This document shows, piece by piece, positions 17,315 through 58,492 of a DNA stretch of 64,000 bases. Within the stretch, counting starts at the first letter, position 1. Every line of letters starts with the position of its first letter. Below the pieces are notes generated by a model. That model was not told the origin of the DNA. It made no database searches and saw only the letters and a list, made by a program, of their open reading frames with translations. Made by a program: the position numbers and the translations under genes. Source of the DNA: an uncultured Oscillospiraceae bacterium (GTDB lineage Bacteria; Bacillota; Clostridia; Oscillospirales; Oscillospiraceae); NCBI GenBank assembly GCA_947626265.1, contig CANQRM010000002.1, positions 1 to 64,000 of the forward strand, written 5' to 3'.

Positions 17315-19222
17315 TTACAGTTCCTGCCAAATTTCGGCCGATTGCATATCTTTGGGACTTTTGCGGATAATAAATCCTGCGAGACAAAAGACTGACAGGA
17401 GGATAAAGATGAAAGCAACTGGGATCGTGCGCCGTATCGACGACCTGGGGCGCGTTGTCATCCCCAAGGAGATCCGCCGCACCATGCGCATCCGCGAGGG
17501 CGACCTGACACTGATAATATTGACACCGCAGACCTTGTCCGCATGTCCTTTGGACGATTGGACGACCCGGGTCTGTAAGCTATCCGCGGTGCCGGACTTA
17601 AAATTTGCCGCGTCCTCCCCTGGGAGCATCCCTGTGCGCAGAATGCTGTCCACATCTGCCTTCAGCTCCACGTCTATGTGGTCCTCGTAAACGGTGATAC
17701 GCTCCACGATGAGGGCCAGGTCGTTCTTGTCCAGCTTTGGCTTGTGGAGGATGTCGTCGAAGATGTCCATGGCCGTCCTGGCCGCCCGATTCACCCGGAT
17801 GATGGTGTTGCGCCGGTCCGCGCTCATCTCGATCTGTGTTGTGATGGCCTCGATACGGCGGAGCAGGTCCGTCTCCATCTCGTCGTAGGTCTCCTCCAGC
17901 AGCGCCTCATTCTCCGGGTGCTTCATGATGTCCCGTATCCGCTGGCGCTTGGTGGCCTTCAGCTCCTCCTGGAGCTGTTCCCGGACCTTCTCCAGATTCT
18001 CCATGGCCGTCTCCACCCGGGATACGTCATGCTCCTCGTTCTTCAGGTCCGCGTTCAGCCGGGCCAGCATGGCGTCGGAGCTGTCCATCACCTTCTGGAT
18101 GTAGATCTTCAGTACTTCGTCCAGCTTATCTCCCCGGATGTGGTGGCTGGTGCAGCCCTTCAGGCCCCGGCGGTGATAGAGCCCGCAGCGGTAGGCCTCC
18201 TTGAGTTTGGGATTGCTCATGGCGAACATGGGGCTGCCGCAGTCCCCGCAGAAGAGGAAACCGGAGTACATATTGTCGTACTTCTTATTGCCCCGGTAGC
18301 AGTTGGTGGAGCGGCGCTGCCGGGCTTCCCGGGCCGCGGCGAAGGTGCGGTAGTCGATGATCGCCTGATGGTGGTTTTCAAAGACCAGCTGGGCTGTTTG
18401 GTCCTGGCGCATGTCCCGGCCGTTGATGAAGCGGCGTGTGAACTTGCCCTGCCGCAGGGTGCCGATGTAGAAATCATTGTCCAGGATGGTCTGGATAGTG
18501 ATGATGCTCCACTCAGGCTTCACTTCCCGGCGGTACTCGGCCCCCTCCGCCTCCTTGCGCTCCCGCTCCGCCATCCTGGGCGTGGGTATGTGCTGGTCGG
18601 TGAGATAGTTCGCGATCTTCTTGTAGCCCCAGCCGTCCAGGTAGAGCTGGAATATCTGCCGGACCACATCCGCCTCCACCGGCACCACCTCGAAGCCTTT
18701 GCCCTTGACGATGTACCCATAGGGTGCGGCGCAGATCCATTCCCCCTCCTGCTGCCGGCGGGTGATGACCGACCGGACCTTCCGGGAGGAGTCTGTCACC
18801 GGCATCTCGTTGAGGAAGAACCGCAGGATGATGTTCTCCCACTGGTCCGACTGGGGGAAGTCGATGTTGTCGTCGATGGCGATGATCCGCGCCCCCGCGT
18901 CCCGCAGGTCCTCCAGCTCCACCAGTCCCCGGCTGGTCCGCCGGGAAAACCGGGAGAAGTCCTTGACCACCAGGATGTCGTATTGGTGGCTGAGCAGCTT
19001 GGGCCGCATGGCCTGGTAGCCCTCCCGCTGGGTGAAGGTGTACCCTGACCGGTCCCGGTCCTCATACATGGTGAGGGTGCTTCCCGGGAACCGACGTCTG
19101 ACAAAGTCCTCGATGATGGACTTCTGGTTTTCGATGGACACGTTCTCCCGCCCCATGTCCTCATCCACCGATATTCGGCAGTACCCGGCGATGTCAAAAT
19201 GTTCTATCAATGTTATCACCAA
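17315..19222 (-). CDS. Large serine recombinase (integrase of the element)
   Basis: A 635-codon frame encoding the site-specific recombinase that most likely integrates and excises this element. The resolvase domain has the nucleophile in GYCRIS (Ser about residue 18) and DRDRSGYTFTQREGYQAM. A recombinase domain follows (PYGYIVKGKGFEVV..., LDGWGYKKIANYL), then a zinc ribbon (CGDCGSPMF...YRCGLYHRRGLKGC, about 325-355) and a coiled coil. It starts at a TTG with AAAGGA upstream. The gene runs through the attL junction: about the last 61 residues are read antisense to spoVT, and the stop lies in host DNA. In the excised circle the frame would instead end 27 residues after the junction, at 57961, giving about 600 residues. 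Confidence 0.93.
   Translation of the reverse strand: MVITLIEHFDIAGYCRISVDEDMGRENVSIENQKSIIEDFVRRRFPGSTLTMYEDRDRSGYTFTQREGYQAMRPKLLSHQYDILVVKDFSRFSRRTSRGLVELEDLRDAGARIIAIDDNIDFPQSDQWENIILRFFLNEMPVTDSSRKVRSVITRRQQEGEWICAAPYGYIVKGKGFEVVPVEADVVRQIFQLYLDGWGYKKIANYLTDQHIPTPRMAERERKEAEGAEYRREVKPEWSIITIQTILDNDFYIGTLRQGKFTRRFINGRDMRQDQTAQLVFENHHQAIIDYRTFAAAREARQRRSTNCYRGNKKYDNMYSGFLFCGDCGSPMFAMSNPKLKEAYRCGLYHRRGLKGCTSHHIRGDKLDEVLKIYIQKVMDSSDAMLARLNADLKNEEHDVSRVETAMENLEKVREQLQEELKATKRQRIRDIMKHPENEALLEETYDEMETDLLRRIEAITTQIEMSADRRNTIIRVNRAARTAMDIFDDILHKPKLDKNDLALIVERITVYEDHIDVELKADVDSILRTGMLPGEDAANFKSGTADSLQTRVVQSSKGHADKVCGVNIISVRSPSRMRMVRRISLGMTTRPRSSIRRTIPVAFIFILLSVFCLAGFIIRKSPKDMQSAEIWQEL
17344..17372 (+). 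promoter_or_regulatory. Sigma-G-like forespore promoter of spoVT
   Basis: GCATA (17344-17348), 17-base spacer, GATAATA (17366-17372), close to the sigma-G pattern GNATR / CATNNTA. Bacillus spoVT is a sigma-G gene. AGGAGG follows just before the spoVT ATG at 17409. The match is by eye. Confidence 0.4.
17409..17504 (+). pseudogene. spoVT: spoVT 5' fragment, interrupted by the integrated element
   Basis: The first 32 codons (MKATGIVRRIDDLGRVVIPK, then EIRRTMRIREGD) are the AbrB-type DNA-binding head of SpoVT, the forespore transcription factor. The frame is cut inside the DNA-binding domain at 17502-17504, exactly at the attL core. The remaining 148 codons lie at 58046-58492 and join in frame to give 180 residues, the normal SpoVT length. 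In the integrated state this end reads on for about 61 unrelated codons to 17690, which would not fold as SpoVT. A sigma-G-like promoter and AGGAGG remain upstream. Confidence 0.92.
17502..17527. other. attL of the integrated element
   Basis: The core dinucleotide GA (17502-17503) ends the host half (spoVT codon 32). The element half carries the arm cactgataatattgacacc (17509-17527), which is the imperfect inverse of the arm at 58019-58037. Paired across the excised junction, the two 19-bp arms are centred on GA, as expected for an attP of a large serine recombinase. Confidence 0.88.
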
Positions 19223-19302
19223 CTTCTATCCTTTAATTTTTCTGTAATTGTATCACACCCTCTGTTCTTATGCAAGTGTATGGATGGGGCGAAACGGAAA
19301 AA

Positions 19303-19330
19303 CGGGAGGACGAATCTCATCGTCCTCCCG
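19303..19330 (-). terminator. Terminator after the AlbA_2 gene
   Basis: An 11-bp perfect stem (cgggaggacga / tcgtcctcccg) with a six-base loop, followed on the minus strand by TTTTT. It separates the AlbA_2 gene from the recombinase gene. The rest of 19223-19422 shows no gene. Confidence 0.8.
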
Positions 19331-19422
19331 CTTGGTCACTTGAGTTCAATATCCTGTCCCTTATGTGGATTTGAAAGAGACTTATTCACACGTCCTGCCC
19401 CGGTACGGTATTTTTCATGTCT

Positions 19423-22375: not shown

Positions 22376-22582
22376 TCAGCCCCGGTTGTGCCGCAGAAGG
22401 GCAAGGGTGCTGTCGTACAGCGGCTCCTGCCCGGAGCGGAACACCACCGGGGTCAGCTTTTGCCTGGCCAGCGACTGGATGATGCCGGGAAGCTCGGCCA
22501 TGCACTGATCGTTTGATTGATCTTCTTTCGTCAGCCAGATCGCCGCGATGTCATTTGCGGGACCGGTCTGAACGATCTCCAT
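22376..22582 (-). CDS. Small conserved protein of the mobilization module
   Basis: A 68-residue protein (MEIVQTGPANDIAAIWLTKE then LPGIIQSLARQKLTPVVFRSG, ending ALLRHNRG). It is preceded by GGGGGG and lies about 100 bases downstream of parB on the same strand. The alternation of strands and helices suggests a small alpha/beta fold. Similar short proteins accompany relaxase genes in clostridial elements, to my recollection; the function is unknown. A hairpin (gaccgggc / gcccggtc, 22344-22367) follows and may end the mobilization operon. Confidence 0.6.
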   Translation of the reverse strand: MEIVQTGPANDIAAIWLTKEDQSNDQCMAELPGIIQSLARQKLTPVVFRSGQEPLYDSTLALLRHNRG

Positions 22583-22678: not shown

Positions 22679-23605
22679 TCAGCGGGCGTCCCTGTCCCGC
22701 TGGCGGCGGAGATATTTGGCGTAATACTCGCAGGCCTTGACGATGAACTCCTCCCGGTGTTTGGCGTCGTAGTCCTCCGGCACCGCGCCCCGGAGCCGCT
22801 CCCAAGGCACACGCACTGCCTCCCGCTGGTTGGGCTTTTCCCGGGCCATCATCTCCACGGTCAGCTCCCGCGTCAGCCGGCCCGCCTGGCTTTCCTCTTT
22901 CAGGTGGTACGCCTGCCCCACGGAGGGGGTGCAGGCGTTGACCTCCATCGCCTCGAGCACCCAGCGCTGCTCCTCCGGTTTCAGATAGGACAGGCTCACC
23001 GCGGGCGTGAACGCGATCCGCCCCTGGTCCACCATGTCCAGCAGCTCCGGGAGGAGATAGGTGAGGCGGATGAAGCGCTGGATTTGTCGGCTACTATCAT
23101 CCCCGTTTTCTGCCATTTGGTCCCTTGACCACTTCTGGCCAACTTGGCCAGAAGTTTGTCCCTGATGATTCAAAGCTTCTAATTTCATTTTGTAGGCAAA
23201 TGCCTTCTCGCTGGGGAGGATGTGCTCCCGCTGCAAATTGGCGTCCACCATGGCGATCACCGCTTCGTCGTCGGTCATTTCCCGGACGATCACGGGCATG
23301 GTCTCCAACCCAAGGCGCCGGCACGCTTCCAGCCGCCGGTGGCCGGAGACCAGCTCATAGCCTCCCTCCTCCAGCGGCCGTGCAAGGCCCGGCGTGATGG
23401 AGCCGAACCGGCGGATGCTCTCCGTCAGCCGGTCCATCTCCTCCCCTTCCAGGTTCTTGAACGGGTGGTCTTTGAATGGGCGCAGTTCCTCCAATGGAAT
23501 GATCCGCACCCGCTCCAGCTGCCGGTCGTCCCGCTCCTCCTGGGTCGTAAACAGATCGTCCAGCGGTGTCAGCATGCTTGCCACCGATTTTTGTTGTCTG
23601 CTCAT
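22679..23605 (-). CDS. ParB/Spo0J-family partition-like protein
   Basis: A 308-residue ParB-family protein. The ParB N-terminal nuclease/CTPase-like domain shows IPLEELRPFKDHPFKN, MDRLTESIRRFGSITPGLARP and YELVSGHRRLEACRRLG. VDANLQREHILPSEKAFAYKMKLEAL and a helix-turn-helix region with LTYLLPELLDMVDQGRIAFTPAVSL follow. There is no ParA partner nearby. In integrative elements such ParB-like proteins sit with relaxase genes and may help keep the excised circle or act in transfer regulation. Its ATG overlaps the relaxase stop (ATGA). Confidence 0.88.
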   Translation of the reverse strand: MSRQQKSVASMLTPLDDLFTTQEERDDRQLERVRIIPLEELRPFKDHPFKNLEGEEMDRLTESIRRFGSITPGLARPLEEGGYELVSGHRRLEACRRLGLETMPVIVREMTDDEAVIAMVDANLQREHILPSEKAFAYKMKLEALNHQGQTSGQVGQKWSRDQMAENGDDSSRQIQRFIRLTYLLPELLDMVDQGRIAFTPAVSLSYLKPEEQRWVLEAMEVNACTPSVGQAYHLKEESQAGRLTRELTVEMMAREKPNQREAVRVPWERLRGAVPEDYDAKHREEFIVKACEYYAKYLRRQRDRDAR

Positions 23606-24999
23606 CGTACAGCCTCCCTTCTCCTGTTGCTGTTCCTGTCGTTTCGCTCCTGTCCGGGCGTCCGCCCGTGGCGCATGTCCCGCTCCACATGGAGCTGCCG
23701 CTTCATTTCCCCGCTCGCCGCCAGGATGTCCCAGGCCGTCCGGTTCTGATCGCGCAGCACCTTGATCTGGGTGGTAAGCCTGTCCCGTCTGGCCGTCAGG
23801 GCCTTCCTCTCCTCCGGGTCCGAACAGCGCCGCAGCCGGTTCCGCACCTTCTCCCGCTGGGCGGTGAGCCCGGCGACCTTTTCGCCTGTCACCTGGATGA
23901 ACGTCTCCACGTCCGGCACGGTCTTAAGCCTGTACTGGGCCAGAACCTTGATGCGCTTGGCATATACGTCCAGTTTCCGGCAGGCCTCCCGCATCTCCGG
24001 GCTCAACGGCTGCTGCTTTGGCTTGTGCCGGTCAAACACCCCCAGCAGATAACAGTAGTGATAGCAGAGCGCCATGAAGCCCGTGACCTTTTTGGCCTTT
24101 TTGAAACTGCCGTGCATCCGCATGGGCTGGGCCGGTATAGTTATCACCTTCCGCTGGGCCGGCCGGTATCTCTCCTGCTGACGGCACCGCACCTTCCCGC
24201 CTGCATCGGCCCACACCCGCTCCATCACCTGGGGGAAGTCATAATCCTCCCCAAGCCGGAACATCCGGGTGCTGCGGTCGCTGCCGATCGGGCGGATAGT
24301 GGCGTACTTCCGGTTGGGGCCCGCCTGCACGATATACCCCAGGCGCTTCATCTCATCCACGAACTCCTGCCGGCTGATGCTTACGGCAGCGGCTTCGTCG
24401 ATAGCCTCCCGCATGAGGTTGTACCGGGTGGGCAGGCCCTCCTTCTCGGCCAGATAGATGTTCCGGGGCGTTCGGTTCTGGGGTTTTTCGATGACCGTGA
24501 GACAATGCTCGGCGCAGAGCCTGTCCGACAATTCCCGGAATCGGTAATAGGCCCGCTTGTTGCAGTCGAATTTCTTTCCGTCCCAGAGGCCCACGGAGTT
24601 GACGACGAAATGGTTGTGATAGGTGCCGGTGTTGAAGTGGGTGGCCACCAGCACCTGGTAGCCGTCGCCCCACATTTGCCGGGCCAGCTCCACTCCCAGC
24701 TGATGACACAGCTCCGGCGTGACCTCGCCGGTCTTGAAACTCTGATAGGCGTGATAGGCCACGTTGCCGCCGGTCTTGCCGAAACGGCTCTGCACCGCCG
24801 CCATCTCCTCATAGGCGGTGGCGGCCTCGCAGTTCACGCCGGTGACGAACACGGCCGACTCCTCCCGGACCTTCTCCCCGTTGGCAGCGTAGTGGAGCAC
24901 CGCCTTCAGGTTTTTCAGCTCCGTCTTTTCCGGGTCTCTTGCGTAGTCCAGCACCCGGACCAGCTTATCCTTCACCGGCCATATCTTCGTCACGCCCAC
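23602..24999 (-). CDS. Relaxase/mobilization protein (MobA-like)
   Basis: A 465-residue relaxase that would nick oriT and lead single-strand transfer. The N-terminal domain has GVTKIWPVKDKLVRVLDYA, the Tyr/His-rich NVAYHAYQSFKTGEVTPE and the triad-like HFNTGTYHNHFVVNSV (HxxxxxxHNH, about 130-145), typical of the MOBP group. A Lys/Arg-rich coiled coil closes it. I take the GTG at 24999 as start since GGGGAG lies upstream; it overlaps the mobC end. The order mobC-relaxase-parB on one strand forms a mobilization operon. Confidence 0.88.
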   Translation of the reverse strand: MGVTKIWPVKDKLVRVLDYARDPEKTELKNLKAVLHYAANGEKVREESAVFVTGVNCEAATAYEEMAAVQSRFGKTGGNVAYHAYQSFKTGEVTPELCHQLGVELARQMWGDGYQVLVATHFNTGTYHNHFVVNSVGLWDGKKFDCNKRAYYRFRELSDRLCAEHCLTVIEKPQNRTPRNIYLAEKEGLPTRYNLMREAIDEAAAVSISRQEFVDEMKRLGYIVQAGPNRKYATIRPIGSDRSTRMFRLGEDYDFPQVMERVWADAGGKVRCRQQERYRPAQRKVITIPAQPMRMHGSFKKAKKVTGFMALCYHYCYLLGVFDRHKPKQQPLSPEMREACRKLDVYAKRIKVLAQYRLKTVPDVETFIQVTGEKVAGLTAQREKVRNRLRRCSDPEERKALTARRDRLTTQIKVLRDQNRTAWDILAASGEMKRQLHVERDMRHGRTPGQERNDRNSNRRREAVR

Positions 25000-25291
25000 G
25001 GCCGTCGCTCCCCTCTCCCCGGCAGAGCTCCAGTATCCGGCTCTCGATGGTCCGCATTGCCACATCGATCTGGATGGGCGCCAGGGTCTTCGCATTCCGG
25101 CGGACGTTCTCCGCGGCGTTGTATATGCCGCGAAGCGCCTCCGGTCCCAGCGGCTTCACCTGGTGCCCCATGGCCAACTCCCGCAGGTATGCGGACAGAC
25201 CCAGCCCGCAAAGTCTGGCGCTGCGCTCCATCTTCCGCTTCTCCGTCTCCGTCACCCGGATATTGACGGCGGCGGTCCGTTTTCTAGGCAT
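24965..25291 (-). CDS. MobC-like relaxosome accessory protein
   Basis: A 108-residue protein with a ribbon-helix-helix head (KRTAAVNIRVTETEKRKMERSA) and the MobC pattern LGLSAYLRELAMGHQVKPLG ... NVRRNAKTLAPIQID. Such proteins bind oriT and help the relaxase. The ATG at 25291 has GGAGGG close upstream; the longer frame crosses the oriT-like site and is not used. The gene overlaps the relaxase start by 35 bases. Confidence 0.85.
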   Translation of the reverse strand: MPRKRTAAVNIRVTETEKRKMERSARLCGLGLSAYLRELAMGHQVKPLGPEALRGIYNAAENVRRNAKTLAPIQIDVAMRTIESRILELCRGEGSDGRGRDEDMAGEG

Positions 25292-30334: not shown

Positions 30335-31456
30335 TTATTTCACTTTTCCTCCGATGACCTTCCGCAGAGTTTTCCCTATCAGCATCGCGTCTTCCTCGGT
30401 ATTATTTCTCCCCAAGGTAATGCGTACCGTCCCCAATGCATACTCCTCAGATAGTCTTATGGACTTTAAGACATGTGACAGCTGTGTATGCACACTATCG
30501 CAAGCAGCGCCAGTGGAGATACATATTCCTTGAAGATCCATCCGGTGCAAAATTGCCTCTCCATCCTTACCGCGAAAAGAGAGACTTAAAAAACCTGGAA
30601 GGTGCTCTTTGGAACCATTGCGAATAAAGTCGAGCCCTTCTAGTTCCCCGATCACGATGTCTTCATATCCTACCAGTCGTCGCGCAGTAGTTTCAATCTC
30701 CTCACAGTTTCTTTTTAATGCTACCGCCATAGCAACAATGGCTGCAACATTTTCTGTTCCAGCGCGTTTTCCTTTTTCCTGGCTGCCACCGTCCATATAA
30801 GGTGAGAAATCAACACCATTGCGTACATATAAAAAGCCAATTCCCTTTGGGCCGTTAAACTTGTGGGCTGATGCGGAGAGCAGGTCTATCTCAAGCTCAC
30901 GAACATCTATGCGTATGTGCCCAACAGCTTGCACTGCATCCGTATGGAACAATGCACCATGCGAATGTGTCACTTTGCAAAGGTCTTTAACCGGCTGGAT
31001 ACTGCCGATCTCGTTATTGGCAAACATGATTGAGACAAGTCGTGTGTTGTCAGAAATACACCCTTCCAGGTTCTCAGAGGTTATAGTTCCATCGGAAGTG
31101 GGCCACAAGTATGCGACTGGATATCCAAGGCGCTCGATAGCCGCGCAGGAGTTCAGTACAGCATGGTGTTCAAAGGCCGAGGTGATCATCGCTCGTTTAT
31201 CAGGATCAGAAAACGCCGATGCCTTAATCGCCCAGTTGTCGCTTTCAGTTCCCCCGGAAGTAAAATATATTTCCTCCGGCAAAGCACCAATACAAGAGGC
31301 GATGGTCTCCCTCGCCTCTTGTATTGCTTTTTTTGGCTGTCGGGCAAAGGAATACGGCTGGGAAGCGTTGCTGTATTCAGAAAGCAAATACGGTCTCATC
31401 GCCTCATATGCCGATTCATCCAGCGCAGTTGTCGCAGCATTATCTGCGTAAACCAA
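30335..31456 (-). CDS. Cysteine desulfurase (IscS/DndA-like)
   Basis: A 373-residue class V aminotransferase-fold enzyme that takes sulfur from cysteine. Marks are YADNAATTAL, FTSGGTESDNWAIK, the cofactor lysine in SASAHKFNGPKGIGF (Lys199), RAGTENVAAIVAMA and the catalytic cysteine in ISTGAACDS (Cys319). It begins at a TTG five bases after GGAGAGG and follows brxL by 17 bases. DndA/IscS enzymes feed sulfur to DNA phosphorothioation. Placed beside a PAPS-reductase-like BrxP, it is the likely sulfur donor of this cluster rather than a housekeeping Fe-S enzyme, since no iscU or mnmA is nearby. Confidence 0.92.
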   Translation of the reverse strand: MVYADNAATTALDESAYEAMRPYLLSEYSNASQPYSFARQPKKAIQEARETIASCIGALPEEIYFTSGGTESDNWAIKASAFSDPDKRAMITSAFEHHAVLNSCAAIERLGYPVAYLWPTSDGTITSENLEGCISDNTRLVSIMFANNEIGSIQPVKDLCKVTHSHGALFHTDAVQAVGHIRIDVRELEIDLLSASAHKFNGPKGIGFLYVRNGVDFSPYMDGGSQEKGKRAGTENVAAIVAMAVALKRNCEEIETTARRLVGYEDIVIGELEGLDFIRNGSKEHLPGFLSLSFRGKDGEAILHRMDLQGICISTGAACDSVHTQLSHVLKSIRLSEEYALGTVRITLGRNNTEEDAMLIGKTLRKVIGGKVK

Positions 31457-31473
31457 AACAACCTCTCCTCAAA

Positions 31474-32937
31474 TTATAGTGTACATTTAACTTCCGGGAT
31501 TTTTTTGCTAGGAACATTATATTCTTTAGGATCAATAATGCAGAGCTGCTTATATATCACACCACGCATTTCCATAGCAGGATTAAGACAATAATGAATA
31601 AAATCCTGAACATCGATATCATTTGCAGATTGAACATGGGGAAATAGCAACTTCATAAATGCGGTACACAAGCGCTTTATGGCTGTTATATGTCGCTTGT
31701 CAGCATTAGATGGATAGTGAAGTAACTCATCAACGATGGCCGCATAACTCAGGTCACTACGCAATTCATGCAAAACCTCTGCAAAGTATTCTGTGTTGAT
31801 CGCCCATCCATGTGCAATCATTCCTGTCGTCATTCTAGGTATTTCCCATCCAGGAATAAATCCATGAAAGCGATCCAGTGTTGCTGACTCGCCAAACACA
31901 TCGCTAATATGAGCGACCATGTTCTTATTTATATCAAAGCGATCAGCATCTATATTTCCTAAAACAATAACACCTGCGTCGGCCGTGAGCATAGCATCAA
32001 AGCCCTTGATTTCACCAAACTCCATATAATGCTTAAGGGCCTGTTGAATCTGACCTGGCTGTTCAAACGTAATAGACTGGACCTCATCAAACCCAACGTA
32101 ATCAAACCGAGTTAAAAGCCCTCCAGTTTTCTTTGCGTTGTCGTAGATGAGCGAAGCCCTGGAAACCGTACCGCCACTTATCAACCATCCACGCTTACTT
32201 ATCTTCTCAAATACATAGCTCTTCCCTGTTCCCTTTGGTGCCAGTTCAATAAGATTCACTCGTTTCTCTACAAAAGGAAGAAGGCGCCTCAAAAAGCACA
32301 GTTTTGTTTCTTCACTTATATTTCCATTACTATCTCTATACCCATCTGGGTTGTAGTCAACAGCGCTAATAATAGTATCAATCCATTCATGAATATCAAA
32401 TCCGCTTCTTGCCTTTCTATAAAAGTCCAAGTTAACCTTATATGGACAAAAGGGCTTATAGCCTATCATGCTTATAACACCCTTGGGCCTCGATGGAGTA
32501 CCTTCCATCATCCAGGTGAGAGTAATAATGCCCCAGTTCTCACTTTCGCGCAAGAGTGTGTCTTGCCATTCCTCTGCGACTTCATATGAAACAACACCTG
32601 CGGCACCGCCGCGAGAACCACCAAAGTCTGGCAACTCAAACATGGTCTTACCCGACTTTACATCTACAGAGACACGTACTCGCGCGAGAAACTGGACAGT
32701 CTCTCCGTTAACCATTTGGAATTTAAATTGCTCAAAGTCCTCACGGTTGGGAATGTAGCGTTTAATATACCGTCGCACACTGTCGTAATCCACGTCCCCT
32801 TCCTCATCCGAAAACTTCATAATAATCCAGTCTCGCATATATGAGGGAATGCTGAGATTAGAAAAGTATTCGCTTCGTTGAGGATCTTTTAAAACTACCA
32901 TATCAGCAAAAATCTCTTTAATTTTATCTTCAAGCAT
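31474..32937 (-). CDS. brxL: BrxL-like AAA protein of the BREX system
   Basis: A 487-residue protein resembling BREX BrxL: N-terminal MLEDKIKEIFADMVVLKD and SIPSYMRDWIIMKF, a middle with NLIELAPKGTGKSYVFEKIS (Walker A about 232-240), SGGTVSRASLIYDN, FDYVGFDEVQSITF (Walker B), and MLTADAGVIVLGNID followed by ATLDRFHGFIPGWEIPRM. BrxL forms DNA-binding ring complexes needed for phage restriction. The C-terminal Lon-protease-like domain of longer BrxL proteins is not visible, so this is a short form. It follows the small Zn-ribbon gene by 15 bases and is AT-rich like the rest of the BREX block. Confidence 0.85.
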   Translation of the reverse strand: MLEDKIKEIFADMVVLKDPQRSEYFSNLSIPSYMRDWIIMKFSDEEGDVDYDSVRRYIKRYIPNREDFEQFKFQMVNGETVQFLARVRVSVDVKSGKTMFELPDFGGSRGGAAGVVSYEVAEEWQDTLLRESENWGIITLTWMMEGTPSRPKGVISMIGYKPFCPYKVNLDFYRKARSGFDIHEWIDTIISAVDYNPDGYRDSNGNISEETKLCFLRRLLPFVEKRVNLIELAPKGTGKSYVFEKISKRGWLISGGTVSRASLIYDNAKKTGGLLTRFDYVGFDEVQSITFEQPGQIQQALKHYMEFGEIKGFDAMLTADAGVIVLGNIDADRFDINKNMVAHISDVFGESATLDRFHGFIPGWEIPRMTTGMIAHGWAINTEYFAEVLHELRSDLSYAAIVDELLHYPSNADKRHITAIKRLCTAFMKLLFPHVQSANDIDVQDFIHYCLNPAMEMRGVIYKQLCIIDPKEYNVPSKKIPEVKCTL

Positions 32938-32952
32938 CTCTTTAACTCCCCA

Positions 32953-33153
32953 TCATAGAAATAAAGTGCAGCCCTGTTCCTTAAACTCTTGGATTTTCTC
33001 CTTTAAATCTTGAACTGAGCAACCAATGTATTGAGCTAGACAGTCCAAACAATATAAATCTTCAGCATCCACATCAATCAGCTTTTGGGTCAACGCAACT
33101 TCGTCCCTTTTTAGAGGCCTTCCACAATCACAACATACTTTCTTCCTGCTCAA
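32953..33153 (-). CDS. Small Zn-ribbon protein inside the BREX operon
   Basis: A 66-residue protein with two CxxC pairs: VCCDCGRPLKRDE and LYCLDCLAQYIGC, then a helix (VQDLKEKIQEFKEQGC). It should bind one zinc ion. Its ATG overlaps the pglZ stop (ATGA), so it is coupled to pglZ. I do not know a named BREX component of this type; it could be an adaptor between PglZ and BrxL or a small regulator. Confidence 0.65.
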   Translation of the reverse strand: MSRKKVCCDCGRPLKRDEVALTQKLIDVDAEDLYCLDCLAQYIGCSVQDLKEKIQEFKEQGCTLFL

Positions 33154-35501: not shown

Positions 35502-35517
35502 AATGTACACACCTCTC

Positions 35518-39717: not shown

Positions 39718-39737
39718 GATCACTTACTCCTTCCAAT

Positions 39738-42083: not shown

Positions 42084-42129
42084 GATAGCATCTTCTCCCG
42101 TCAATGATTAATAATGCAAGATACCCAGA

Positions 42130-45074: not shown

Positions 45075-48000
45075 TTACCCCACCATCAGCTTATTGGTCT
45101 TCTTCAAATACTTCGCCGGGATGGGGGCGTCCAGCTTCCACGTGATGTTCATGGGCCGGGAGCCCTCATGCTTGACATAGCTCGCCGTGCCGAGATACGT
45201 ATACACCGCCGCAGTGTTCAGTATCCGGTCCGACTTAAACTCCCGGACGAACAGCAGCACACGGCTCCCCTGCTCCCGATGGTGTATATACCGCTGGCCG
45301 GTAGGCGAGTTCTCCGCCGTTGTGCTCTGGCTCTGCCAATGGAACAGTTCGCTGTTGATGGAGTAGTCGTTGTACATTGTGGTCGGCGAATAGTCCTTGT
45401 CGGCCTTGTTGAGCGTCACAAAGAACACATCCAGCTTCTTCTCCGGCAGCCACTTCACGCCCTCACGCACAGTCACCGGCTTCATAAAGTCCAGCGCCAG
45501 CAGGATCTGGTCGCGGGTATATGTACAGTGCAGGTCCAACGGACAGTTGAAGCCCACATCCACCGGCGCGTCGATGAAGTCGATATGATCATACTGATAC
45601 TTCAAAAGCTCTATGAGCTCGCCCAGCATGACCGGCGAATCCGCGAGGGCGCAGAGATTGGCCCGTACCTCCTCGCTGTTCCAGTCCTCCGCCGCCTTCA
45701 GCCAGATGCTCACATAGAACATCTGCATCATGCGCCGCTCGACGGGCGCCATTGCCGCCACATCCACATCGCCTATCCGCGGCAGCACCTCCAGCAGGAA
45801 GACTATCCACCGGCGGGAATCGATCGTCGCCAGCCGCGGGAAGGCCTTTTTCATGGTCTTCTCCGCAGGCTCTGTGAAATCCTCCATCACATCCGCCCGC
45901 GCGCACAACCGGGAGAAGGTCTCAAATTTATAGATGGAGCGCGGGTCGATATGGTAATGGTCCAGGAAGTCGGCCAAGGTCAGAGGCCGTCCCGTATCCT
46001 CCTCAAAGCTGGCAATCCGGGCGATGAGGCCGGCACTGTTCCCATAGGACGCCCGGATGTTATCCAGGATATATTTCGCCGCCTTCTTTTCCAGCTGGAC
46101 GTAGCAGCCCTTGGGGAGTGAGACGAACCCATCCTTGATCTCCCGGCTAACGCTTCGCGTCGTATTGGAAAGCAGTGCCGAGAACTTGTCCTCAAAATTA
46201 TATTTCCTGTTTGCCTGGCCAATGAAATCCAGCACGGTCAGGCATTCCTTATTCTCCGCCAGGCGAAGGCCGCGGCCAAGCTGCTGCAGGAAGATGGTCA
46301 GCGACTCGGTGGGCCGCAGGAACAGCACCGTGTTGACCTCCGGGATGTCCACGCCCTCGTTGTAGATATCCACCACGAAGATAAATCGGATCTCCCCGTC
46401 AATGAGCTTTTTCTTGGCCGTCTGCCTCTCCTCATCTGGGGATCTACCGGTCAGGAATATGGACGGGATGCCGTGCTCATTGAAATAGTCCGACATGAAC
46501 TGGGCATGCTCCACCGTCACGCAGAAGCCCAGTCCCTTTACATCGTCGATGTCCGTGACGTATTTGAGCAGCGACGACACCACATGGTCCGCCCGGCGCT
46601 TGGCCACCATCCCGCTCAGGGTATAGAGGTTGGACAGCTCGTTTCTGTCATACCCGCCGGCAGACCACTTCAGCTGGTCCAGGTCCACCGTGTCCGTCAC
46701 GCCAAAATACTGGAACGGGCACAGCAGCTTCCGGTCGATGGCCTCCGGCAGCCGGATCTCTGCGGCGATGCGGTTATTGAAATACGACAGGATGCTCTTG
46801 CCGTCCATTCGCTCCGGCGTCGCGGTCAGGCCCAGAAGGATTTTAGGCTGGTAGTAGTCGAGCAGCTTCTGGTATGTCGGGGCCGCCGCATGGTGGAACT
46901 CATCGACGACGATGTAATCGTAGAAGTCCGGCGATGTCTTAATCTTGGGAGTTGAAGGTCTGGATGGAAATGAACAGATTGTCAATGCTCTCAGGCCGGA
47001 AGGTGCCCACAAACATCTCGCCGAAATTGGCATCCTTCAATACCGCCCGAAAAGTGTACAGGCTCTGCCGGAGGATCTCCTCCCGGTGGGCGACAAACAA
47101 CAGCCGGCAGGGCTTTCCCGGGTTCTGCCTGCGAAACCGCTTATAGTCCAGCGCTGAGATGACCGTCTTTCCCGTGCCCGTGGCCGCCACCACAAGATTT
47201 CTGGTGTAGCCCCGCACGGAACGCTCTGCATCCAGCTTGTCCAGGATCTCCTGCTGGTAGGAGTATGGCAGAATGTCCAGGGTATAGGCCTCGGCGTTGT
47301 TGCTGTCAAAGTACTTCTCCGCCTTCAGCGCCCGGGCCAACCGCTCCTTCTGCCCCTCATCGTAGTACTCAAACTCATTGGAGTTCCAGTAGCTCTCAAA
47401 TGTCGCGGCGATCTTGTCGATGGTCTCCGGCAGGTCGCTTTTCGTGACCTTCACGTTCCACTCCAGGCCGCTGGACATGGCGGCGTTGGACAAGTTTGAC
47501 GACCCCACGTAGGCCGTGGTGAAGCCGGTATCCCGATAGAACATATATGTCTTGGCATGCAGGCGTGTCCGCTTCGTGTCATAGCTGACCTTGATCTGGG
47601 TGTTGGGCAGCTGCCGCAGCTCCTCGATGGCCTTCACGTCGGTGGCACCCATATAGGACGTGGTAACGATCCGCAGCATGCCGCCGCGTTGGGTAACCGC
47701 GGTAAGCTCATCCATGATGAGGCGCAGGCCGCTCCACTTGATAAAGGAGACAAGCATATCGATCCGGTCGCTGGTGACGATCTCCTTTTTCAACTCGGTG
47801 TACATCTGCGGCTCATGCACCGCGCCGGTGAAAAGGGAGCTTTGCGCGATGGATGTCACAGGCCGGATGATTTCCGCTTTCTCATCCAGGGCGAGCATGC
47901 TGTTCTGCCTATCCAGGAGCGCGAGAAGTTGCTCCGCACGCTCCGCCACAGAGAGCTCATCGAATGTGCCCTCGGATGTCTCCGCGATGATCGTGGATAC

Positions 48001-48216
48001 GATGCGGTTGACCATTTCCACTTGTGAGTTTACGTCGCCGCCGTTGTCCTGGACATTCTCAAGCCCCTTCTCCACCACAGCGGCCACATACTTTGCCAGG
48101 ACCTTTGCCGCCTCCGCAGCGTCAACAGGCGCCGTCTGACTGATCTTATCTGTTGTGGCAAGCTCTCTGTCCAGCGCCTTATTGATAACCTGTTCGTATA
48201 TCCCGTTGTGCAGCAT
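45075..48216 (-). pseudogene. Frameshifted PLD-DEAD helicase (DUF3427-type)
   Basis: Two frames make one gene of about 1045 codons. The upstream part (48216-46939) has a helical head, a phospholipase-D-like domain (RLHAKTYMFYRDTGFTTAYVGSSNLS) and helicase motif I (VVAATGTGKTVISALD). The downstream part has motif II (YIVVDEFHHAA), LLGLTATPERMDG, FVVDIYNEGVDIPEV, QQLGRGLRLAENK and a DUF3427-like C terminus. The frame breaks at about 46941-46950: FNSQ ends in a stop where relatives continue into KTSPDFYDYIVVDEF. About four bases sit where a whole number of codons is expected. Intact homologues are nucleic-acid translocases, often called type III restriction-like. A sequencing error cannot be excluded. 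The start is the ATG at 48216 with GGAGG. Confidence 0.82.
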
Positions 48217-48218
48217 GC

Positions 48219-48809
48219 TCATTCCTCCGCCCGCTCCACATCCACACTCTCCACCAGCTCCCGATACCGGAAGCACTCCTTCACATGGTCGTTGACGATC
48301 CCGCAGGCCTGCAGGTGGGCGTAGACGGTCACGCTGCCAATGTACTTCATGCCCCGCTTCTTCAGGTCCCTGGCGATGCGGTCGGAGAGGTCATTGGACG
48401 CCGGGATATGCCCCAGCTCATGACCCTTGTAGAGCATCGTTTTCCCGTCGGTCCAGCCCCAGAGATAGTCGGAAAAAGTGCCGAACTCCGCCCGGATGCG
48501 CTGTACGCACCGGGCATTATTGATGACCGCCTCTATCTTCCGCCGGGAGCGGATCATGCCGGGCACGGCCATGATGCGGTCCACGTCCTTGTCGGTGTAG
48601 GCCGCCACTTTATCAAAATCAAACCCGTCAAAACAGCCGCGGAATGTCTCCCGCTTGCGCAGCACCGTGTCCCAGCTCAGGCCGCACTGCATGGCCTCCA
48701 GCATAAGGAACTCGAACTGCTTGCGGTCGTCACGGACCGGCACGCCCCACTCCTCGTCGTGGTAGCGCGTCTGCCGCTCGTTCATCAGGCACCAGGGACA
48801 TCTCTGCAT
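48219..48809 (-). CDS. tag: DNA-3-methyladenine glycosylase I
   Basis: A 196-residue Tag-family base-excision enzyme that removes 3-methyladenine. Marks are RCPWCLMNERQTRYHDEEWGVPVRDD (zinc ligand and catalytic region), MLEAMQCGLSWDTVLRKRETFRGCF, IRSRRKIEAVINNARCV and KKRGMKYIGSVTVYAHLQACGIVNDH, ending in a conserved His for zinc. It overlaps the helicase start by a few bases and is probably cotranscribed with it, linking alkylation repair to the helicase. Confidence 0.94.
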   Translation of the reverse strand: MQRCPWCLMNERQTRYHDEEWGVPVRDDRKQFEFLMLEAMQCGLSWDTVLRKRETFRGCFDGFDFDKVAAYTDKDVDRIMAVPGMIRSRRKIEAVINNARCVQRIRAEFGTFSDYLWGWTDGKTMLYKGHELGHIPASNDLSDRIARDLKKRGMKYIGSVTVYAHLQACGIVNDHVKECFRYRELVESVDVERAEE

Positions 48810-51434: not shown

Positions 51435-51497
51435 ACAGTATCTTTAGTGTGGGGCAATTGAGGCATTGATAAGAAATAACACCTTTTGGAGGAAATT

Positions 51498-53249
51498 ATG
51501 AGAATCGCTCGCGTTAAAGTAACCAACTACAGGAATATTGACGGAATTGAAGCTGTTCTCAATCCTGAGTGCAACTATATTATTGGAGAAAACAACCTTG
51601 GAAAAAGTAATTTTTTGTCACTGCTAGTCACTGCTTGTAATGGCAGAGGGTTCGTTGAAACAGATTTTGCCGATTCGGAAAAGCCAATCGAAGTTGAATT
51701 AGATATTAGACTGCTTCCTAATGAACAGGGATTCTTTGGCGATAACTTTTCGCCCGATGACGCTACTCTTATAAAAATTCTATACAAACAAGCTATCACC
51801 GATGCATATCCTTCAATTGTTTGCGCTGACTCTAACGAAAGCATTCCTCCTCGTCAAATGAGAAAAATTAACTTCCTCAAGTACGAAACAACCGCTATTC
51901 CAAGCAAGGAATTACGACTGGACACAAATAAGGGTGTCGGAATTATTATGAGCACAATAATTGAAAGATTTAATGATGCTAACACCTCCTCTTTTCTCAA
52001 TGAAGAACAAATTGGTTCTCTTATTGAATTCATTAACGGATATCTTGGAAAAATACGCAGTTTCAAAGACTACTCAATTAAGGCAACCATTTCGCGTGAT
52101 TTGACCGAGATGCTCACCAGCCTGTTTTACTTGTCTGATGGTGACAGAAAAATCGAAACTACCGGCAGTGGAGTTCAATATATGGCAATGGCCTCTATTA
52201 ATATTCTGTGCCAAATTATGGAACTATATAAAAGTAAAGCAACCAACTTCTCAGATTATTTATATACTGATTCTACAGGGAAAAAACTATTGCCGCTTAT
52301 CTTATCAATTGATGAGCCAGAAGTACATCTTCATCCTTATCTTCAAAGATCTCTAATTGGGTATTACAAGCGTATACTCTGTAATAAGGATGATGAATTT
52401 GTAGAACTGCTCAAATACTTCTTTGATATTGATGGTATTGATGGCCAACTAATTATTGTAACGCATTCCACAGATGCTTTGGCTGGTGACTACCGTCACT
52501 TGATTCGCTTTTACAAAAGGAACAACATACCAACCGCGATTAGTGGCTATTCACTTCAACCGAACACCGGTACGTGTAATAATGGTCACATCAAGAGTGA
52601 AGAAGAGAAGCATTTGATTATGCATTTTCCTGAGATTAAAGAAGCTTTTTATTCAAAATGCGCTATTATAATCGAAGGCGCTACAGAATATGGCTGCATT
52701 CATGCTTTTGCTGATAAGATGGGCATATCTTTGGACGATTATGGAATCTGCGTCATTAATGCTGAAGGTGAAAAATCAATCAGGCCCACTCGCAGATTGC
52801 TTGAATTATTTGCAATTCCAAGCATAGCAATTTACGATCGTGACGTCAAAGGCGGACATGCTGTGGCACCAGATGAATTCTTCACAACAGAACTATGCTT
52901 TGAGATAGAGATAGTAAAAACATTGTATGCTGCCGGAAAAACTGATATAGTTAGAAGAATTGTAGCCAATGTAGATACGCGGGCAGAGAGGGAAGTTTTA
53001 CAGTTAGAATTCATTCAAAGCCATTATAAAAAGATGAACATTGATACGTCAAACTATTCACCAAAAAGTTTAGATGATGTAAGCGATACCGACGAAGAAG
53101 AATTTTGCGCGATGTATTCGGCATGGTATATGGCAAAGAAGAGTGTCCTTCTCGGCAGGAGTGTTGGAGAGATAATACCTGCGGAGAATATTCCATCTTG
53201 CTACCGAAGCGCAATAATAAGGGCACTGGAGGTAGCAGAAAATGCCTAG
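51498..53249 (+). CDS. gajA: Gabija endonuclease GajA (OLD-family ATPase-TOPRIM)
   Basis: A 583-residue protein with an ABC-type ATPase domain (RVKVTNYRNIDGIEAVL, Walker A GENNLGKSN 30-38, Walker B LILSIDEPEVHLHPYLQ about 270, IIVTHSTDALAG) and a C-terminal TOPRIM nuclease domain (CAIIIEGATEYG about 390, IAIYDRDVKGGH about 445). In Gabija, GajA nicks DNA when nucleotide levels fall during phage replication and works with GajB. The ATG at 51498 has TGGAGG upstream. The gene overlaps gajB by eight bases. Pairing with a UvrD-like helicase separates it from a lone OLD nuclease. It is AT-rich relative to the neighbours. Confidence 0.9.
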   Translation: MRIARVKVTNYRNIDGIEAVLNPECNYIIGENNLGKSNFLSLLVTACNGRGFVETDFADSEKPIEVELDIRLLPNEQGFFGDNFSPDDATLIKILYKQAITDAYPSIVCADSNESIPPRQMRKINFLKYETTAIPSKELRLDTNKGVGIIMSTIIERFNDANTSSFLNEEQIGSLIEFINGYLGKIRSFKDYSIKATISRDLTEMLTSLFYLSDGDRKIETTGSGVQYMAMASINILCQIMELYKSKATNFSDYLYTDSTGKKLLPLILSIDEPEVHLHPYLQRSLIGYYKRILCNKDDEFVELLKYFFDIDGIDGQLIIVTHSTDALAGDYRHLIRFYKRNNIPTAISGYSLQPNTGTCNNGHIKSEEEKHLIMHFPEIKEAFYSKCAIIIEGATEYGCIHAFADKMGISLDDYGICVINAEGEKSIRPTRRLLELFAIPSIAIYDRDVKGGHAVAPDEFFTTELCFEIEIVKTLYAAGKTDIVRRIVANVDTRAEREVLQLEFIQSHYKKMNIDTSNYSPKSLDDVSDTDEEEFCAMYSAWYMAKKSVLLGRSVGEIIPAENIPSCYRSAIIRALEVAENA

Positions 53250-55059
53250 TACTAGCCTCAAAATAATCAAAGACAAAATAGCGGCCAAGCACGAAGGCGA
53301 TGATAAACAACTTGAAGTTATTTTTTCAGATACGTCTAGACTTATGGTCGAAGCACCTGCCGGATATGGCAAAACAACAACGATGATAAGCCGACTTGCC
53401 TACTTATTCGCAACTGGTAAGATCCCTAACCCCAAACGCATTCTTGGCCTTACTTTTAGCGTAAATGCCGCATTGAAAGTCAAAAGAGAAGTTGCGGAAA
53501 AATTGCCTGCGCTGCTTGGTTCCCATAATAGTTCGCTAGCAATTAGCGAAAAGGCTACCATTACAAACTATCATGGTTTCTGTAAAGGGATACTAAAAAA
53601 ATACGGGTATCTAATTGCTGATGCTTTGCGAAAAGATATTAATTTATTCCGTGCAGTTGGTGATACCGAAATAGAAAAACTAGCCCCTCTTAAAGCAGTA
53701 TTAACTAGTAATGAAAGTATGCACCTTAAGGAAGTCGATGCAATTATCAAGGAGGCACACATTCCTAACAGCGAGGAAATCCACTTATATAACAGCATTG
53801 TCATTAAAAAGCTTCTCCCCTTGGGGTACATTACACACACTGCTATTATCTTATTTGTGTTGGAGCTATTTGAATCAAATGCTGAAGTTGCGAATTTCTA
53901 TCAGAGCTTATATCCGATAATCGTTGTGGATGAGTTCCAAGATACAAACTGTATAGCATGGTCGTTACTCGAAACAATTATCTCCGATCAGACGCAATTA
54001 CTTTTTCTCGGAGATCCACTTCAACGGATATATGGTTTCATAGGTGCACTTCCCGACATAATGTCTATTGCTTCCGAAAAATATAATATGACTAGAATTA
54101 CGCTGTCAAAGAATTATCGCTTTCGGGATAACACTGAAATGCTAAAATTGGATAGAAATATCCGCGCAAATGCCACTTCATATTTTGCTCCTGCAATTCC
54201 AGAAGATGACTTAGCTTCTCTTCCAGGATTCTGGGGAAAAACGCAGCAAGATGAAGCCGATCAAATAACTTCAAAGGTTCAGGATCTTTTGAAAGAGAAA
54301 AATTCAAAAATTGCACTATTATTCCGCAGTCGTGGAAAAAATTCAGAAAAAGTAGAAGAGCAACTTATCATCAAGAAAATCCCATATTTTTATGGAATGT
54401 TTACTGATGAAGATTTAGACTACATTGAGTTTCATAACAAGTGCCACGCAGTTTTTATAAATCGTTTTGAAAGCAATAAATCAATTAACAAAAGATCTCT
54501 TACTTCTTTTAGCAACGAAATAAAGAAACAGTACGCAGAAAAGCAAGATAAAATAGTATATTCTCTGCTCAGGTTACTTGATGCCTTTGTTGAAAAGGTA
54601 GCCATTGATTATGCTGACCTCTTGCCTGAAGATAAGTATATGTTACTTTTGGATGTTTTTGAAAATCGACAGTTGAAGCAGGCCATGGAGTATGTCGATT
54701 CACAAGTTATACTGTCCACCGTGCATGGAGCGAAGGGACTTGAATGGGACTATGTGATTCTTGGCGATATTGAACGTTGGGTGTTTCCTAGTTATTATAT
54801 CTGTAAGGCTTGCGAAAGCAGATTTAATCAACCCAATAAGGGATGCTGCATTTTACCAAGCCCATTGCCAAAGGAATTTAGAGACTTAGTATTGGATGAA
54901 TTGTCAGTCTTCTATGTCGGGATAACTCGTGCTAAAAAGCAGATCTATGTTTCGGCTAGTTCTAAACGGCTTGATTCATTTGGAAATGAAAAAGACAGTG
55001 TTTACTCGTGCATGGTTAGAATGCCCGGAGTAAAATTGGTAAAGGCCAATTCATTCTGA
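53242..55059 (+). CDS. gajB: Gabija helicase-like protein GajB (UvrD family)
   Basis: A 605-residue superfamily 1A helicase-like protein: motif I EAPAGYGKTTTMISRLAYL (about 35-53), motif Ia LGLTFSVNAALKVKREV, motif II PIIVVDEFQDTN (about 226), motif III LLFLGDPLQRIYGF, motif V STVHGAKGLEWDYVILGD (about 491) and motif VI VFYVGITRAKKQIYVSA (about 558). A CxxC...C cluster (CKACESRFNQPNKGCC) near 520 may bind zinc. GajB is activated by DNA ends and depletes ATP or unwinds DNA during infection. It completes a standard two-gene Gabija system. Confidence 0.9.
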   Translation: MPSTSLKIIKDKIAAKHEGDDKQLEVIFSDTSRLMVEAPAGYGKTTTMISRLAYLFATGKIPNPKRILGLTFSVNAALKVKREVAEKLPALLGSHNSSLAISEKATITNYHGFCKGILKKYGYLIADALRKDINLFRAVGDTEIEKLAPLKAVLTSNESMHLKEVDAIIKEAHIPNSEEIHLYNSIVIKKLLPLGYITHTAIILFVLELFESNAEVANFYQSLYPIIVVDEFQDTNCIAWSLLETIISDQTQLLFLGDPLQRIYGFIGALPDIMSIASEKYNMTRITLSKNYRFRDNTEMLKLDRNIRANATSYFAPAIPEDDLASLPGFWGKTQQDEADQITSKVQDLLKEKNSKIALLFRSRGKNSEKVEEQLIIKKIPYFYGMFTDEDLDYIEFHNKCHAVFINRFESNKSINKRSLTSFSNEIKKQYAEKQDKIVYSLLRLLDAFVEKVAIDYADLLPEDKYMLLLDVFENRQLKQAMEYVDSQVILSTVHGAKGLEWDYVILGDIERWVFPSYYICKACESRFNQPNKGCCILPSPLPKEFRDLVLDELSVFYVGITRAKKQIYVSASSKRLDSFGNEKDSVYSCMVRMPGVKLVKANSF

Positions 55060-55173: not shown

Positions 55174-55176
55174 TCT

Positions 55177-55659: not shown

Positions 55660-55663
55660 CGTT

Positions 55664-56035: not shown

Positions 56036-56130
56036 TGCGCAGACTTCCTTTCTCCTCCATCATACAGGGAGATCCGCTGTCTGTCGAATGTATGAAATCA
56101 CATTGCGGCACGTTCTTTCACTTTTTCAAA

Positions 56131-56240
56131 CAAATAATCAAACAGTTTTCATGATAATGAAAGTCTCTTTGATTATTTCAAGAGTTTGTTTGCTTATTTC
56201 GTTTGATTATTTGACCTCTTTTGTTAATTTGTTAGATTAT
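56131..56240. repeat. 13-bp GTTTGATTATTTG-type repeats
   Basis: Copies at 56131-56143 (inverted), 56167-56179, 56188-56200 (gtttgcttatttc) and 56201-56213, the last two directly abutting, plus a weaker form at 56231. They lie in the AT-rich gap of about 275 bases between tnpV copy 2 and the Fic gene. An operator array or small iteron set is likely. No CRISPR-like spacing. Confidence 0.6.
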
Positions 56241-56271
56241 GATGAGCAAATAACTTTCCTCTGAAAGAAAG

Positions 56272-56289
56272 CACCCTGCCACGGCAGGG
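56272..56289 (-). terminator. Terminator of the second Fic gene
   Basis: Stem accctgcc / ggcagggt with a two-base loop, then GCTTTCTTTC on the minus strand, 20 bases past the fic stop. Confidence 0.6.
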
Positions 56290-56310
56290 TACTTTCGTAA
56301 TGCGGTTTTT

Positions 56311-57297: not shown

Positions 57298-57328
57298 AGG
57301 ACACCTCACATTTCCCCTCCGGCGTCTT

Positions 57329-57817
57329 TCAAATTTGGAACACGGCCCGGGCCAAGCGTCGTCCGCTCCCGGTCCGCATGAACTTTTCCATGAACGCTCT
57401 GACAGTCTCTTTATCGTACCCGCCCTCGCAGGCATTCACGATGTAGTCTGCCTCGATCAGGATCTGATAGTCCAGTCCATCGATGTCATGGAGTGTGTGG
57501 TGGTGCCCCACCAGGTACGCCACCCGCTCGATCTGTGCCGGCGTCATGTCCGTGTCTGCCAGAAAAGCCCGAACCAGCGCAGGGCCTTCCTCCTCCTGAC
57601 GTTTCCCGCTGGCGCTGCCGTACTTCTCCCGACACAGGGGACAGGCGATGTCGTGGGTGATGGCCGACACCTCAAGGATGAACTGCGTCTCCCCGTCCAG
57701 CCCCTCCAGCTCTCCAATGGTCCTGGCATATGTCCACACGTGGGTCAGATGTTCGATGTCATGGATATTCCCATTGGAACCGCTGATCATCTTTTCCATG
57801 ATTTGAGATATCGTCAA
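57329..57817 (-). CDS. HD-domain phosphohydrolase
   Basis: A 162-residue HD-family protein: NIHDIEHLTHVWTYART, EVSAITHDIACPLCRE (HD), LVGHHHTLHDIDGLDYQILIEADYIVNA. It resembles small HD hydrolases common in Clostridia; the substrate is unknown, nucleotides being likely. The start is a TTG (57817) seven bases after GGAGGG. It is the last gene of the element before attR. The bases 57818-58018 hold no gene in the integrated form, although 57961-58042 would encode the recombinase tail in the excised circle. Confidence 0.78.
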   Translation of the reverse strand: MTISQIMEKMISGSNGNIHDIEHLTHVWTYARTIGELEGLDGETQFILEVSAITHDIACPLCREKYGSASGKRQEEEGPALVRAFLADTDMTPAQIERVAYLVGHHHTLHDIDGLDYQILIEADYIVNACEGGYDKETVRAFMEKFMRTGSGRRLARAVFQI

Positions 57818-58018
57818 GACATGCCCCTCCTTTGCTCCATAATGCTGCTCGCGTTTCCTCTGGCACCATGATCGCCAGAGTTATGTACTTCCCGCCGCCA
57901 TTATAACGCGCTTTTCTCTGAGAGACAATACATCGCTCATCTCATCGCTCGCCGTTTTCGTCACTCTCCACAAATTCTCTTTGCCAAATGCAGCATATTG
58001 CTGATAAATTCCTGTTTT

Positions 58019-58046
58019 GGCGTCAACGTTATCAGTGGTGGTGACC
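58019..58046. other. attR of the integrated element
   Basis: The element half carries the arm ggcgtcaacgttatcagtg (58019-58037), the imperfect inverse of the arm at 17509-17527. The core GA lies at 58043-58044 and host spoVT codon 33 (CCC) resumes at 58046. Confidence 0.88.
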
Positions 58047-58492
58047 CCCTCGAGATCTATACAGAGAAGGACGGGGAGGTCATCTTCAAGAAGTACTCCC
58101 CCATGGGGGAGCTGAGCTCCTTCGCCGAGCAGATATGCGAGTCCATGCACAAGGCCGCGGACTACACCGCCGCCGTGTGCGACCGGGACAGCGTCATCGC
58201 CGCCGCCGGCCAGGGCCGGAAGGAGATACTGGACCGGCACATCAGCTCTGAGCTTGAGCAGCTCATGGAGGCCCGCCGGCCCTACCGGGCGGAGCCGGGC
58301 GCCAAGGCTCTGCCCGTAACGGACGGGGAGGACGGCCCCGCCGCGGCGGTGGCCGTGCCCATCCTCTCGGAGGGAGACGTGCTGGGCTGCGTGGTGTTCC
58401 TGGAGCGGCCCGACGGCGTCAAGGCCGGCGACACGGAGCTGAAGCTGGCCACCACCGTCTCCGGCTTCCTCGGCAAACAGATGGAGTCATGA
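58043..58492 (+). pseudogene. spoVT: spoVT 3' fragment
   Basis: From GAC at 58043 the sequence continues the SpoVT frame left at 17504: PLEIYTEKDGEVIFKKYSPM, SFAEQICESMHKAADYTAAVCDRD, then the GAF-like effector domain with GRKEILDRHISSELEQLM and AVPILSEGDVLGCVVFLERP to the stop at 58490. It is 148 residues. In the integrated state it has no promoter or ribosome site of its own; a frame can be opened from a TTG at 57998 in element DNA. A hairpin terminator follows. Confidence 0.92.

Follow-up and report, generated by a model that had tools for sequence, protein, structure and literature searches.

What becomes of a sporulation gene when a mobile element settles inside its coding region, and does such an element ever leave it again? 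The question is raised by the window analysed here, a stretch of 64,000 nucleotides from an uncultured Oscillospiraceae bacterium (GenBank assembly GCA_947626265.1, contig CANQRM010000002.1, positions 1 to 64,000, forward strand), where it was confirmed that spoVT is split by an element of 40.5 kb that is mobilizable and carries defence genes. In B. subtilis, SpoVT is a forespore protein produced under sigma-G, and in B. cereus it is reported as essential for sporulation (PMC5061766); a forespore role in gut Clostridia is carried over by analogy. The explanation that we regard as probable is that of an integrative mobilizable element inserted in spoVT, with its own attachment (att) site, attP, inside its integrase gene (int), which swaps the ends of the two genes upon integration and which excises at times, also in the sporulating lineage.

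Split spoVT and the integrase at its junction

The split gene, its junctions and the integrase gene are located as follows.

17409..17504, plus strand: spoVT 5′ part, codons 1-32 (sequence comparison)
58046..58492, plus strand: spoVT 3′ part, codons 33-180 and stop, Pfam SpoVT_C (Pfam and sequence comparison)
17502..17503, no strand: att core dinucleotide GA, left junction, TC when read along int; deduced from symmetry
58043..58044, no strand: att core dinucleotide GA, right junction
17504..17543, no strand: element-side att arm adjoining int, 18/30 positions symmetric with the other end
58003..58042, no strand: element-side att arm, far end
17315..19222, minus strand: large serine integrase with Resolvase, Recombinase and Zn_ribbon_recom, its frame uninterrupted across the att site

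Both spoVT halves lie on the same strand and join in frame into one SpoVT protein, the two GA cores being separated by 40,541 bp. A preliminary description of this DNA had placed SpoVT codons 1-32 and 33-180 on either side of the element, with an in-frame join at GA, and the same coordinates, strand and core were found here. It had also proposed 19-bp inverted arms centred on the GA: the symmetry is present but imperfect, with matches at 13 of the 19 nearest positions and at 18 of 30 overall, a value reached by 2 of 10,000 shuffles, and the core dinucleotide itself is deduced from this symmetry rather than from cleavage data. The host site (attB) and attP are non-identical, with inverted arms around a central dinucleotide, as in large serine integrases. 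The att assignment also holds against intact relatives, the contiguous junction motif being held by all 15 intact same-genus spoVT loci. About 215 bp located 3′ of the window C-half match the DNA that follows intact spoVT in three of these 15 loci (L018-L020, 86-88%), so the window C-half points to the native spoVT locus; the other 12 gave no match to this segment at 1e-5. The check for a second intact spoVT, suggested in the preliminary description, was run on the genome's own assembly (96.6% complete, 77 contigs) and no second full SpoVT was found; besides the two halves, the assembly contains three AbrB-type matches that stay within SpoVT residues 1-57, and a further match, a weak one (E 0.05), that covers residues 13-72.

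The large serine recombinase described at the junction was recovered, with its three domains all above cut-off, but it does not simply abut the junction: the frame runs through it, and host DNA supplies the last 62 codons, which run antisense to spoVT and its 5′ region. Relatives were collected by a scan of genome_contigs, which gave 152 stretches and 130 integrase relatives, of which the best 80 were kept; together with three same-genus loci and the window's own, and leaving out L109, whose match stops at residue 431, 83 integrase loci extend past residue 500. In 76 of them the integrase reads in frame, without a stop of its own, into the C-terminal (GAF) half of SpoVT; 74 of these fusions are closed by a stop, with a SpoVT part of 147-154 residues, and two run off the contig. 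Five loci (the window and L036-L039) read antisense into the N-terminal half of SpoVT, L051 is cut off by the contig end, and in L102 the frame closes with a short tail-like stretch. No stop was found between residue ~500 and the core in the 82 judgeable loci, though linker length varies.

The fusions carry Resolvase, Recombinase, Zn_ribbon_recom and SpoVT_C in all four cases tested, three of which are from named isolates, and the same fusion is present in the isolates Flintibacter muris, Agathobaculum butyriciproducens, Eubacterium sp. MSJ-21 and Ruminococcus flavefaciens FD-1. Likewise fused are the viral-collection members L136, L137 and L144 and record MT836658.1; L147 and record MT839487.1 end before the core. 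The twelve outgroup integrases whose ends were read (30-36% identity) end differently. The integrase is a member of a family dedicated to spoVT. The AlphaFold model of an Int::SpoVT-C fusion (mean predicted local distance difference test 72.3, predicted template modelling score (pTM) 0.33) contains a confident region, ~590-719, which corresponds to the SpoVT_C part and comes after low-confidence stretches; this part, which matches solved SpoVT structures by sequence, is predicted to fold.

Exchange of gene ends and the inverted clade

The far end of the element carries one further feature.

57961..58041, minus strand: last 26 codons and stop of the circle-form integrase gene (PPLITLTPKQEFISNMLHLAKRICGE), stranded at the element far end

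These codons are in the frame that would continue int in a circular form of the element. An in-frame, element-encoded tail comes after SpoVT residues 1-32 in 18 loci with the common orientation; it is 25-31 residues long in 17 of the 18 (rough consensus P(S)(Q/L)xTLTxWExFCxxMLxLAKRxGW) and divergent, with 58 residues, in L133. These tails are homologous to the one at the far end of the window element. Such a tail was also found in six further genomes with window-type ends, from a set of eight additional loci (none came from L026, and L124 and L025 belong to the same genome) and by a search that kept only tails with an early LT. Across 17 elements, tail codons 8-24 give proportions of nonsynonymous (pN) and synonymous (pS) differences of 0.298 and 0.841 in the int frame, with pairs pooled and rows not independent; the other two frames give pN 0.417/pS 0.356 and 0.406/0.335, so that pN is above pS. 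The integrase tail is under protein-level constraint, and the AlphaFold model of the SpoVT N-half::tail protein (68.8, pTM 0.35) suggests that it contains a helix.

Comparison of both element ends at the sequence level places attP inside int, about 25-31 codons before the int end in most members, and upon integration int and spoVT would therefore exchange their 3′ ends. The swap is reciprocal in the common orientation, SpoVT(1-32) gaining the conserved int tail while int gains the SpoVT C-half; integration would thus yield Int::SpoVT(33-180) and SpoVT(1-32)::Int-tail, and excision would restore spoVT and return the native tail to the circle-borne int. Each state of the element would then encode a different integrase C-terminus. 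In L102 (genome G079), the integrase terminates in GVDPLLKSLEDEILFC, which resembles the beginning of the distal tail, and an intact spoVT is located 2.9 kb further on; this is the only candidate attP-type junction seen. A different rearrangement is observed in Flintibacter muris (L134, 1560-1760), where the spoVT N-half lacks roughly its first ten codons and has unrelated sequence in their place, within an open frame of 322 codons, as if the gene had been hit by a second event; the preceding 34.5 kb of the contig gave no match to a pattern for the usual spoVT start.

The orientation of the window element is that of a minority. In the direction of int, the common group has a GA core where the window clade has TC, the position being the same and the flanking sequences matching, and the five antisense integrases form one clade (support 100) nested among sense integrases in a quick tree, by which this clade, the window plus four, is derived and of single origin. 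In its members the int tail consists of 36-77 host-encoded residues with a varying end; neither the int frame and tail codons nor the att arms and spoVT parts are disrupted in those looked at. These data fit a flip of the central dinucleotide from GA to TC which reversed the polarity of insertion and left the element inverted, with int reading antisense spoVT; the window clade would thus represent a natural case of such a flip.

Movement, possible excision and alternative explanations

Among 34 same-genus genomes, spoVT is uninterrupted in 15, six have a C-part starting at residue 28-29, three have the C-part fused to the integrase, two have it cut or partial and eight gave no spoVT match at 1e-15. 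In 11 genomes, the window's own among them, the C-part is displaced or fused, and eight of these have the integrase gene (only partial in G028); of the remaining three, G030 has a contig that ends inside int, and G011 and G027 have no int and show intact spoVT sequence. The integrase gene is absent from all 14 other intact genomes of the genus. Tracing of the halves covered 25 of the 80 kept loci, and in 10 of the 25 traced genomes both are on one contig and strand, 14-56 kb apart. Integrases of 93%, 96% and 93% identity are found next to SpoVT-C parts of 39%, 60% and 62% identity, respectively; such similar integrases in distant spoVT genes would indicate horizontal moves of the element. Identity over the 60 nt to either side of the core is higher on the int side in 7/7 pairs, by 1 to 22 points (in an eighth pair no core was found). 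As for the divergence of fused and free SpoVT-C within the genus, SpoIVA, too, is more distant in the sense hosts G004, G016 and G028. Spo0A_C and SpoIVA were found in 36/36 genomes tested, two genes that do not prove sporulation. The retention of spo0A and spoIVA, the intact spoVT parts and tail, and the near-identical integrases in distant spoVT genes suggest that the element cycles through an excised state, and a developmental, reversible excision is plausible.

Several loci show other arrangements of the gene. In L116 (G027), an intact spoVT is followed ~15 kb later by a displaced C-half with a window-type end and no integrase; the halves are in reversed order on one contig in G074 (L119/L120) and on opposite strands of one contig in G081 (L121/L122). 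In the Vescimonas fastidiosa MM35 record (L170, NZ_AP023416.1) an N-half::tail precedes an intact spoVT by 12.4 kb, the spoVT start and ~40 bases before it being present twice, one copy with the integrase tail after codon 32; no integrase is among the genes listed between the two copies, in a gene table known to be incomplete, and the best integrase match on the record is 26% identical. In G384, two contigs (L179, L181) break off on the attR side, no more than 20 bp from the att core; these breaks, whose ends lack an exact overlap and independent support, might represent two states in one culture. Candidates for excised or mixed forms were rejected in three cases: MT839487.1 (4.2 kb), which stops short of the core and has no exact terminal repeat of 11-200 bases; the G074 contig, with no end overlap at six lengths tried; and G011, where the intact piece and the displaced half differ in sequence.

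The rejection of G011 is one of several results that weigh against an element that still excises. This genome is only 82% complete, and its int may be missing by chance; G079 keeps int plus an intact spoVT; the excess on the int side of the core can be as small as 1 point, and two pairs have the lower identity on that side when 150 nt are compared ungapped; and most genomes are metagenome assemblies. The joined attP pattern gave four matches in 400 family genomes, all attL, and none as an exact pattern in viral_contigs or in the 143 loci, with patterns that had no positive control and would miss L102; phage and plasmid records contained no attP-spanning match. No strain with excised and integrated states together and no same-strain attB were found. 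With simple patterns applied to the 180 bp before int, sigma-G/F or sigma-E/K patterns occurred in 0/76 regions and a sigma-A-like one in 10/76 (0.9 expected). The retained spoVT halves could also derive from recent insertion.

An insertion that has simply become static, inactivating spoVT in hosts that sporulate without it or not at all, would account for the missing excised junction and for the housekeeping-like promoter matches, and B. subtilis without spoVT still forms spores, albeit defective ones (PMC5061766). We consider it quite unlikely, however: the two sporulation genes are kept in every genome tested, the SpoVT part is of nearly constant length in the closed fusions, the element has moved horizontally, and a half without int coincides with an intact spoVT sequence in G027, G011 and the Vescimonas fastidiosa record. 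An assembly artefact or a chance similarity, to which the number of metagenome assemblies and the odd order or strand of the halves in G074 and G081 could be ascribed, is next to negligible, given the same fusion in four named isolates and the N-half::tail in the MM35 record. It is doubtful that the window's inverted clade lost the regulation given by the fusion, the element being a plain passenger here and developmentally switched in relatives; the flipped core, the host-encoded int tail of varying end and the single origin are in line with this, whereas the undisrupted frame, arms, tail and spoVT halves of the members looked at are not.

A serious contender, to which we give somewhat less than an even chance, is an ordinary skin-like element, with excision driven by a separate recombination directionality factor (RDF), perhaps a small open reading frame upstream of int, and with the swapped tails as by-products of the attP position. 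RDFs are reported for SP-beta and for the C. difficile skin element (PMC5595907; PMC5025042), the window clade persists without a fusion, and the window encodes a candidate, whose RDF role is only putative.

22376..22582, minus strand: 68-aa conserved small protein, ~3.2 kb upstream of int; candidate RDF

Relatives of this protein, which is of no known family, were found near int in 60/81 loci (55 copies on the int strand, five on the opposite one), at a median of 270 bp before int and up to 6.4 kb; it gave no PHROG match and one NCBIfam match far below cut-off, and the L040 copy had no Pfam match. Against by-products speak the lack of any stop between residue ~500 and the core despite a varying linker, and the protein-level constraint on the tail. 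Directionality in the cycling element that we favour could be set by such a separate RDF or by the swapped tail itself. In its most elaborate form, which we hold to be decidedly unlikely, spoVT and int would constitute one reversible genetic switch: the Int::SpoVT-GAF fusion would be excision-competent and signal-gated, the circle integrase with its native tail would be integration-competent, and the element would leave spoVT in the forespore, be carried in the spore as a circle and re-enter after germination.

Cargo and comparison with known systems

The remaining features of the element are listed below.

22679..23605, minus strand: ParB-domain protein
23602..25095, minus strand: MobA/VirD2-type relaxase
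30335..31456, minus strand: DndA/SspA/NifS-like cysteine desulfurase adjoining BREX genes
31474..32937, minus strand: BrxL
33150..35510, minus strand: PglZ of BREX type 4, above NCBIfam cut-off (BREX_PglZ_4)
35518..39723, minus strand: BrxC/PglY (PADLOC; NCBIfam gave no match)
39738..42104, minus strand: BrxP
45075..48276, minus strand: type IV restriction-like protein, two overlapping frames
51486..53249, plus strand: Gabija GajA
53242..55059, plus strand: Gabija GajB

A TnpV protein and two Fic-like genes are also encoded. As predicted from the genes (PADLOC, NCBIfam), the BREX type 4 set has BrxP, BrxC, PglZ and BrxL together, with a PglZ of type 4; the cysteine desulfurase next to it, at one end of the stretch 30335-42104 that holds both, hints at sulfur chemistry. 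The two restriction-like frames match consecutive parts of one profile, which may reflect a sequencing error, a pseudogene or a frameshift. By its gene content the element is best classed as an integrative mobilizable element, which a site-dedicated large serine integrase has placed in spoVT.

The preliminary description had likened the locus to skin and SP-beta, as an integrase-driven split of a sporulation gene, and the likeness is supported. Skin (in sigK), SP-beta (spsM), gin (gerE) and yin (yabG) share with the window element a site-specific recombinase and a position within the coding sequence of a sporulation gene; gin, too, is described as not phage-like (PMC5595907). Unlike skin and gin, whose targets sigK and gerE have their role in the mother cell (PMC5595907), the window element resides in a gene that acts in the forespore in B. 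subtilis (PMC5061766), and it has attP inside int. This element family of gut Clostridia thus splits a regulator known from the forespore in hosts that keep spo0A and spoIVA and in which mostly no second copy was seen; if excision is developmental, the germ line, that is the spore, would be rearranged, unlike with skin.

Att sites within genes have parallels as well. In the suicidal (SSV-type) archaeal integrases the att site is inside the integrase gene and integration splits the gene, likewise here; however, these are tyrosine recombinases, said to be exclusive to archaea, that are split into inactive parts (PMC8371274), whereas the bacterial serine integrase described here keeps its three domains uninterrupted and exchanges only its tail. 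In the integration-dependent immunity of mycobacteriophage BPs, attP is also in a coding gene and the proteins of the integrated and free states differ in their C-terminus, but there a repressor is shortened (PMC4557955), and here an integrase is altered, gaining a host sensor domain in most members. Proteins fused to a serine integrase are known from engineered integrase-RDF fusions, which favour attL x attR (PMC5737554); these contain a known RDF, while the present fusion is natural and contains the SpoVT GAF half. With attP in int, one recombinase would occur in two forms that differ in their C-terminus, a host sensor domain being attached in one of the two, a design that offers a natural test of how the direction of serine integrases is set. 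Among the literature matches listed, none reports spoVT as an integration target, attP inside a bacterial serine integrase gene or a serine integrase taking over the sensor domain of its target, and a term search of the main text of PMC10083194 gave no mention of SpoVT or AbrB.

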